Below, piece after piece: positions 57,600-58,835 of a DNA stretch of 64,000 bases. Under the pieces are notes generated by a model, which ran no database searches, had not been told where the DNA came from, and was given only the letters and a program-made list of their open reading frames with translations. The position numbers and the translations under genes were made by a program. Location: positions 1,798,001 through 1,862,000 of the forward strand of contig NZ_JBGKAC010000001.1 in the NCBI RefSeq assembly GCF_041361465.1. Direction: 5' to 3'. The DNA comes from Halobaculum sp. MBLA0143 (GTDB taxonomy: Archaea; Halobacteriota; Halobacteria; Halobacteriales; Haloferacaceae). Position 1 is the stretch's first letter; every line of letters begins with the position of its first letter.

Positions 57600-57680
57600 G
57601 TCGGGCGAGGGTTGAAGTACGGTGCCGGGGCCAAACTGGCGTGCCAGCGGCCGGAAAACGACAAGCTGGCACACACAACC

Positions 57681-57890
57681 ATGAGTCTGCACTGTCGCAA
57701 CTGCGGTCACGCGGAGTCGGTCGTCCTGCTCGTCGAACTCGCCGCCGAGGTCCGGACGGACGAGGGTGGCGGTCCCCGAGCGGCCGGTCGAGACTGGTCG
57801 CTGGACGCCGCCTGTACGGCCTGTTCCAGCACGGACCTGGCGGGCGACCCGAACGCGCTGCTGGATCGGGTCACACCAGTCGGGGGCTGA
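57681..57890 (+). CDS. Small zinc-ribbon peptide (69 aa)
   Basis: A 69-aa protein with two CxxC knuckles (CRNCG and CTACSS), separated by a helical stretch (SVVLLVELAAEVRTDEGGG). The pattern fits a one-domain zinc ribbon. ATG 57681 (MSLHCRNCGH) is chosen because the upstream frame to 57612 lies between genes and lacks coding bias. It follows npdG by 81 bp. Function unknown. Confidence 0.6.
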   Translation: MSLHCRNCGHAESVVLLVELAAEVRTDEGGGPRAAGRDWSLDAACTACSSTDLAGDPNALLDRVTPVGG

Positions 57891-57962
57891 CGGCAGGCCC
57901 CGCCGGCTCTCGGGAGCCCGACGCCCCCGTTCGGCCGAGAGAACCGACCGCACGGACTGCGA

Positions 57963-58325
57963 CTACTCTTCGCTGACAGAGTCGCAGTTGTCACAGACGC
58001 ACTGACAACACTCGACACACGGGTTGTCCCACTCACAACAACCGATGTAACAGCCACACTGGTCGTCGAGCGTGACCGTCGAGTCCGTCTCGTCGACGAC
58101 GATGGACTTCGTCGTCAGGTCGACGTCCTCACCGCCCCGTTGCAACTGTTCGTCTGTCAACAGTTCCGACAGCGGCACCTGCCCGGACCGGTCCGACACG
58201 TCCACCGAGCCGATTCCCTCCAACGCCCCGCCGAGTGGGGCAGTCTCTGCCGATGCGACGCCACCCAGACCGGCCAGCCCCGCGGACGCGGCGCCGAGCC
58301 GTCTGAGCACTGTTCTTCGTTCTAT
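57963..58325 (-). CDS. Tat-exported cysteine-rich peptide, probable ATA start
   Basis: A 120-aa secreted peptide, unrecognised. The predicted N-terminus (M)ERRTVLRRLGAASAGLAGLG is a Tat signal ending ASA. A hydrophilic middle is followed by a C-terminal block of ten Cys in about 25 residues (CGCYIGCCEW, then CVECCQCVCDNC) and an acidic tail. RR lies upstream of the only standard start (GTG 58310). ATA 58325-58323 gives the exact leaderless spacing from a TATA box at 58349-58355. Ten Cys recalls halocin C8, but the spacing differs and no immunity gene is seen. A peptide antibiotic, metal-binding or signalling role is inference. Confidence 0.6.
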   Translation of the reverse strand: MERRTVLRRLGAASAGLAGLGGVASAETAPLGGALEGIGSVDVSDRSGQVPLSELLTDEQLQRGGEDVDLTTKSIVVDETDSTVTLDDQCGCYIGCCEWDNPCVECCQCVCDNCDSVSEE

Positions 58326-58348
58326 AGTTGCGTTTTCGAGTTGAGGTA

Positions 58349-58355
58349 GTTATAG
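58349..58355 (-). promoter_or_regulatory. TATA box of the Cys-rich peptide gene
   Basis: Read on the minus strand, CTATAAC is centred 27 nt upstream of the ATA codon at 58325. A second AT-rich element (tttatg, 58356-58361) sits just behind it. Confidence 0.55.
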
Positions 58356-58427
58356 CATAAAACTACTGCAATTGTAAGCTGAAAAGCTTCTAGAACACTT
58401 ATATTTGCTGGGTCTCGGTGCGAACCG

Positions 58428-58559
58428 GTCGGTTCGGTGACGGGTCTCGGAGTCGTCCGACCCCCGTGCGAGAGCCCGTCGTCACGACGGCACGAACTGT
58501 CGTCGGCTCCAGCCGATAATCGTGGCCGCCGCCACACATCTTTTGTAGCTCCGTTTTTT
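58428..58559 (+). ncRNA. Candidate structured small RNA
   Basis: A TATA-like TTATAT at 58399-58404 predicts a start near 58428, on top of the 16-bp dyad at 58421-58436. Downstream, an 11-bp stem with one bulged G pairs 58439-58449 with 58469-58480 (GACGGG-TCTCG with CGAGA-g-CCCGTC). A second hairpin TCGGC-tcca-GCCGA lies near 58503-58516. A T6 run at 58554-58559 could be the terminator. No similarity to a known RNA family was recognised; this is inference from structure and signals. Confidence 0.3.
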
Positions 58560-58630
58560 ATACTTATTCGCACACGACTCGGTGGCAAAATATGTGTGAG
58601 CCAGCGACTCTGTCGATGTAGCTAATAGTT

Positions 58631-58638
58631 CATATATC
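58631..58638 (+). promoter_or_regulatory. TATA box of the AbrB-like gene
   Basis: CATATATC is centred about 28 nt upstream of ATG 58662, indicating a leaderless transcript and supporting the short gene. Confidence 0.6.
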
Positions 58639-58661
58639 GGTGGAGGTACACTGTCCGGTGT

Positions 58662-58835
58662 ATGTCGGACGAAGACGCCGAGATTCTCGGCACTACGAAG
58701 GTCGCACGGCGCTGGCGAATCAGCCTGATCAAAGCGGTTCGAGAGGAGCTCGGCGACGAGGACGAGGAGCCGGAGATCGGCGACCGGGTCGTCTTCCGCA
58801 AGAAGGACGGGGAGATCGTCGTCGACCTGGCCTGA
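58662..58835 (+). CDS. AbrB/SpoVT-like small DNA-binding protein (57 aa)
   Basis: A 57-aa protein read from ATG 58662 to TGA 58833. The sequence EILGTTKVARRWRISLIKAV, followed by GDRVVFRKKDGEIVVDLA, has the swapped-hairpin AbrB outline (TKV-x-R-x-RI-x-L ... GDxVVF). Members bind DNA as dimers, either as antitoxins or transition-state regulators. No adjacent toxin gene is evident. The TATA box at 58631 supports the start. Confidence 0.7.
   Translation: MSDEDAEILGTTKVARRWRISLIKAVREELGDEDEEPEIGDRVVFRKKDGEIVVDLA

Follow-up and report, generated by a model that had tools for sequence, protein, structure and literature searches.

The locus described here raises the question of where the translation of a short gene begins when its twin-arginine motif lies partly upstream of the first conventional start codon. 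The window, i.e., the whole stretch of DNA that was analysed, comprises 64,000 nucleotides from Halobaculum sp. MBLA0143, and the features discussed are collected in Table 1. The frame 57963-58325 is genuinely coding: of the six frames, only that of the peptide shows a positive codon bias, its GC3 is 0.79, and relatives align with it over the full length. The position of the twin arginines relative to the conventional start codons and the cluster of ten cysteines at the peptide end had both been pointed out in an earlier note on this DNA, and both are borne out, the former by the minus-strand codons. The stretch ERRTVLRR occupies residues 2-9 counted from ATA, and E-R-R-T is encoded upstream of the first ATG, GTG or TTG. 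Pfam gave no match for the 120-residue peptide, and the Tat signal model of NCBIfam scored under its cut-off. Read-through was also considered for the in-frame ATG-CTA-TAA at 58358-58350 and rejected, because this sequence belongs to the TATA region and extensions of this kind are absent from the relatives.

Table 1. Features of the locus, in coordinates of the window.
Feature	Position	Strand	Remarks
Coding frame, ATA to TAG	57963..58325	minus	120 residues; predicted Tat-exported Cys-rich peptide precursor
ATA	58323..58325	minus	column of the family's ATG start
GTG	58308..58310	minus	first ATG/GTG/TTG of the frame; a start there drops the conserved RR
Codons upstream of ATA		minus	TAA (58352-58350) CTA CCT CAA CTC GAA AAC GCA ACT ATA (58325-58323)
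Codons after ATA		minus	GAA CGA AGA ACA GTG (58310-58308) ... stop TAG (57965-57963)
Predicted Tat signal peptide	58248..58325	minus	IERRTVLRRLGAASAGLAGLGGVASA, then ETAP; twin arginines 58319-58314
Cys-rich tail	57984..58058	minus	ten Cys in 25 residues (residues 90-114)
TTTATG, likelier TATA box	58356..58361	minus	begins at -36 from ATA, -51 from GTG
TATAA, box of the earlier note	58350..58354	minus	begins at -29 from ATA; includes in-frame stop TAA 58352-58350
CTAG element (putative)	58390..58393	minus	at -68; common to most family promoters

The first relatives were two peptides encoded about 1 kb apart in one genome (G095), the better with an E-value of 1.2e-9 in a single-sequence search of 147 related genomes. 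A profile of these two and the query led to a further genome (G191, E = 2.3e-7), and a seven-sequence profile to another genus (g44), ten genomes of which have between one and four copies. The family, defined in this analysis as alignment A3, was read in 27 intact members, the ATA gene included. Its members have RR within residues 1-4, a hydrophobic stretch, then a middle region, and a C terminus that is rich in Cys and varies in pattern. The 120-residue peptide has x-R-R after its first residue, the hydrophobic stretch and the Cys-rich C terminus, and the comparison establishes its membership in a haloarchaeal family of small peptides, predicted to be Tat-exported and disulfide-rich. Apart from Tat signals, curated models (Pfam and NCBIfam) compared with 24 members gave no match above the level of weak or chance similarity. 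The family appears to be new to the libraries covered; it may have been described under other names. Plasmids and viral contigs yielded no relatives, and GTDB contigs yielded one, in the G095 genome. The matches in G240 (antisense of another frame) and G307 (L087, not Cys-rich) were judged spurious, and the internal TGA codons seeming to interrupt some relatives are the stop codons of those relatives. As a separate observation, a short subfamily (L103, L104, L098 and L116) has 85 residues with eight Cys in the last 17, and in several g44 genomes it is located next to longer members of the family.

The alignment bears directly on the start. Where this gene has ATA, each of the 26 intact relatives has ATG, immediately 5′ of x-R-R, the arginine pair starting one residue earlier in the three relatives with R-R-R; in this trait, ATA versus ATG, the present gene departs from the family. 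The earlier note had looked to homologues for an ATG at this position, which is what was obtained, while the case that it had set against its own proposal (homologues devoid of the RR motif and starting at GTG) has no representative: neither a start at the GTG position nor loss of RR occurs among the 26 intact relatives. ATA accounts for 57 of 97,242 codons (0.06%) in the sampled genes of this genome, so its presence in the start column is unlikely to be due to chance. In addition, the pattern TTTAT-N24..34-ATA-NNN-MGN-MGN has one match in the 3.58 Mb genome, against none for a reversed-pattern control, and the ATG form of the TTTAT plus x-R-R pattern has five, of which three belong to frames that carry a Tat-type signal. 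The universal ATG of the relatives, the rarity of ATA, the uniqueness of the pattern and the TATA spacing described below make it very probable that ATA 58325 replaces the family's ATG. An ancestral ATG at 58325 would have become ATA via one G-to-A change.

A single base could also differ in the record and not in the cell, i.e., a sequencing or assembly error could hide a genuine ATG at 58325. One wrong base would be enough, ATG is universal among the relatives, and the oddity itself was the selection criterion for the finding, which favours errors. Nonetheless, the site has no homopolymer and the rest of the frame is undisturbed, and an error is judged improbable.

Archaeal promoters have about 27 nt between the TATA box centre and the transcript start. 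Two candidate TATA boxes for the transcript start precede the gene, TTTATG starting 7 nt upstream of TATAA. In the relatives, a TTTAT-type box mostly starts at -36 to -31 from the ATG, and in the three Tat-type frames of this genome it starts at -34, -34 and -31. Plain word counts for this genome, which were preferred to a genome-trained promoter matrix that had drifted to coding sequence, place the peak of TATA-type words before ATG at -31 to -28. Given the box ranges in the relatives and in the Tat-type genes of the same genome, the TATA spacing suits a start at 58325 and not at 58310. It is plausible that either box would place the predicted 5′ end 0 to about 8 nt from ATA, transcription beginning upstream of that codon. 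Leaderless transcripts have been defined as those in which 0-5 nt precede the start codon (PMC4983044). The earlier proposal of an ATA exactly at leaderless distance from a TATA box stands in part: TATAA lies at a permitted distance, but the box in the family position is probably TTTATG, and a 5′ end near ATA is plausible from the spacing, but a leader of 0-8 nt fits equally well.

Translation from the GTG at 58310 would give a shorter, unexported product (MLRRLGAASAGLAG...) devoid of the conserved twin arginines, which are invariant across the family. GTG starts are normal in haloarchaea (in Haloferax volcanii, 6-9% of the leaderless transcripts have one), and the GTG-started form retains an RR plus the hydrophobic stretch. 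However, this start is used by no relative, its TTTATG box lies beyond the range of the family, and RRLGA, read from GTG, fails the Tat expression RR.[FGAVML][LITMVF] (taken from PMC1182353), which is satisfied by RRTVL, read from ATA. The predicted Tat motif is retained only with the ATA start, as opposed to the GTG start, and initiation at GTG is regarded as quite improbable.

Whether AUA is used as a start is a separate matter. To our knowledge, ATA almost never serves as a start codon. The reading that ATA replaces the family's ATG and that AUA weakly initiates translation is tentative, and AUA initiation is likewise a tentative first choice when set beside start loss, error and the GTG start. 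The ribosome would start weakly at the 5′-proximal AUA with the ordinary initiator tRNA, the CAU anticodon of which would be mismatched at the third base of the codon. The 39 tRNA genes that were decoded (four intron-type matches fell outside this set) include no unusual initiator tRNA, which speaks against the use of AUA. The use of AUA is favoured by the otherwise intact frame, by the even number of cysteines, by the Tat motif that a start at ATA alone retains, and by the GUC start reported for a leaderless haloarchaeal mRNA, as cited in PMC4574771. On one leaderless reporter, by contrast, the output from GUG was 2.6% of that from AUG, and none was detectable from UUG (PMC4983044, PMC4574771), so AUA may yield next to nothing. 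The more specific proposal, in which a (nearly) leaderless mRNA has AUA at its 5′ end and the start codon alone keeps an exported disulfide-rich peptide at a low dose, is possible but rather unlikely.

The poor performance of non-AUG starts on leaderless mRNA also favours a start-loss allele, in which ATG was lost recently, little or no exported product is made, and decay is beginning. A single transition accounts for the sequence in this case, and the gene is a single-copy accessory one that is missing from the matching interval in two congeners. In one of them (G001) both neighbours are kept, and in the other (G003) the AbrB-like gene is directly followed by the gene lying one further out; absence from congeners indicates that the gene is dispensable. 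Moreover, family members do decay, as deduced from a paralogue in G191 (L118, G191:C1:1628454-1628678, minus) with its Tat signal and Cys-rich part in different frames; the frameshift falls within the signal and the broken copy adjoins intact ones. On the contrary, the present gene has 119 codons free of a second lesion, a complete and even Cys set, and a TATA box, and start loss is a doubtful, although far from negligible, explanation.

The peptide gene was not found in 147 other sampled genomes of the same taxonomic family, and 10 of the 18 g44 genomes carry a family gene. This patchy distribution suggests that the gene is accessory, perhaps laterally moved. In the two congeners (L052 and L053; window 57612-58835), the interval that bears the gene here is about 200 bp or shorter and devoid of the peptide gene, and G003 also has no counterpart of the neighbouring short Cys-containing frame 57612-57890.

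If AUA initiation, the preferred reading, is correct, the product would fold, make about five disulfides, and then exit via Tat already folded. Signal cleavage probably occurs after ASA, and the cut would release an acidic peptide of roughly 10 kDa, with 22 D/E versus 3 K/R and a computed pI of 4.05. No lipobox Cys is present at the signal end, which reads VASA-ETAP, and no Cys occurs before residue 90. The Cys count is even in 27/27 intact members (8, 10, 12, 14 or 16, with 10 in the ATA-gene peptide), several of which are close orthologues, so that the independent cases of parity are fewer. Complete intramolecular pairing predicts even parity and metal sites do not need it; for the Cys tail, disulfide bonding thus seems likelier than the metal binding that had been suggested earlier for this peptide. 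AlphaFold2 on the family alignment gave a mean pLDDT of 45, i.e., no usable structure prediction, and a search of solved structures gave just weak matches, to Tat signals. No dedicated processing, immunity or modification genes were recognised adjoining the relatives, the neighbourhoods being read by eye. The released peptide would probably be a low-dose effector or signal outside the cell, a role that fits the multiple divergent copies in g44, the diverse Cys patterns and the lack of recognisable partner genes nearby.

Halocin C8 is a haloarchaeal peptide halocin that is Tat-exported and Cys-rich, with a precursor of about 283 residues. The present peptide resembles it in its haloarchaeal origin, in the Tat signal of its precursor and in a C-terminal part rich in Cys, but differs from it in its length of about 120 residues, the lack of an immunity region and another Cys pattern. 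The Pfam and NCBIfam results included no match to a halocin or halocin C8 family model. The processing of halocin C8 has been described (PMC12893001).

With regard to the start codon, the closest likeness is the GUC case of Halobacterium salinarum (Srinivasan et al. 2006, as cited in PMC4574771), in which a leaderless haloarchaeal mRNA starts outside AUG/GUG/UUG, as is proposed here; the codon there is GUC, whereas here it is AUA and its use is putative. Other natural rare starts are ATT/ATC of infC and GTC of sigR in Streptomyces (PMC5472188). As in these genes, a rare start would hold the level of the gene low and escape annotation; however, infC and sigR are bacterial genes under IF3 control, while the present one is archaeal, with a putatively (nearly) leaderless mRNA and an ATA that is not conserved in the relatives. 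A natural AUA start, if true, would be added to the known non-canonical starts (infC, sigR and the haloarchaeal GUC case). It would be a natural exception to the view that AUG, or at least GUG, is required on leaderless archaeal mRNAs, and it would mean that gene callers overlook starts of this type.

However the start behaves, the locus points to a family of exported even-Cys peptides that is apparently unrecorded and whose members, candidate archaeal effectors or signals, have a common promoter element. CTAG, a rare sequence in this genome (0.40 per kb), occurs in 23 of the 27 family upstream regions (100 nt) versus 15 of 353 control regions (70 nt), commonly as CTAGAAA just 5′ of the TATA box (for instance, L093, L080 and L096), and looks like a putative shared regulatory element of the family. 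In a Tat-type frame at genome position C1:2820816 (L168, MQSRRAVLKCIGAASTIG...), the sequence is TTTATTACTAGG, with CTAG directly 3′ of the TATA box.
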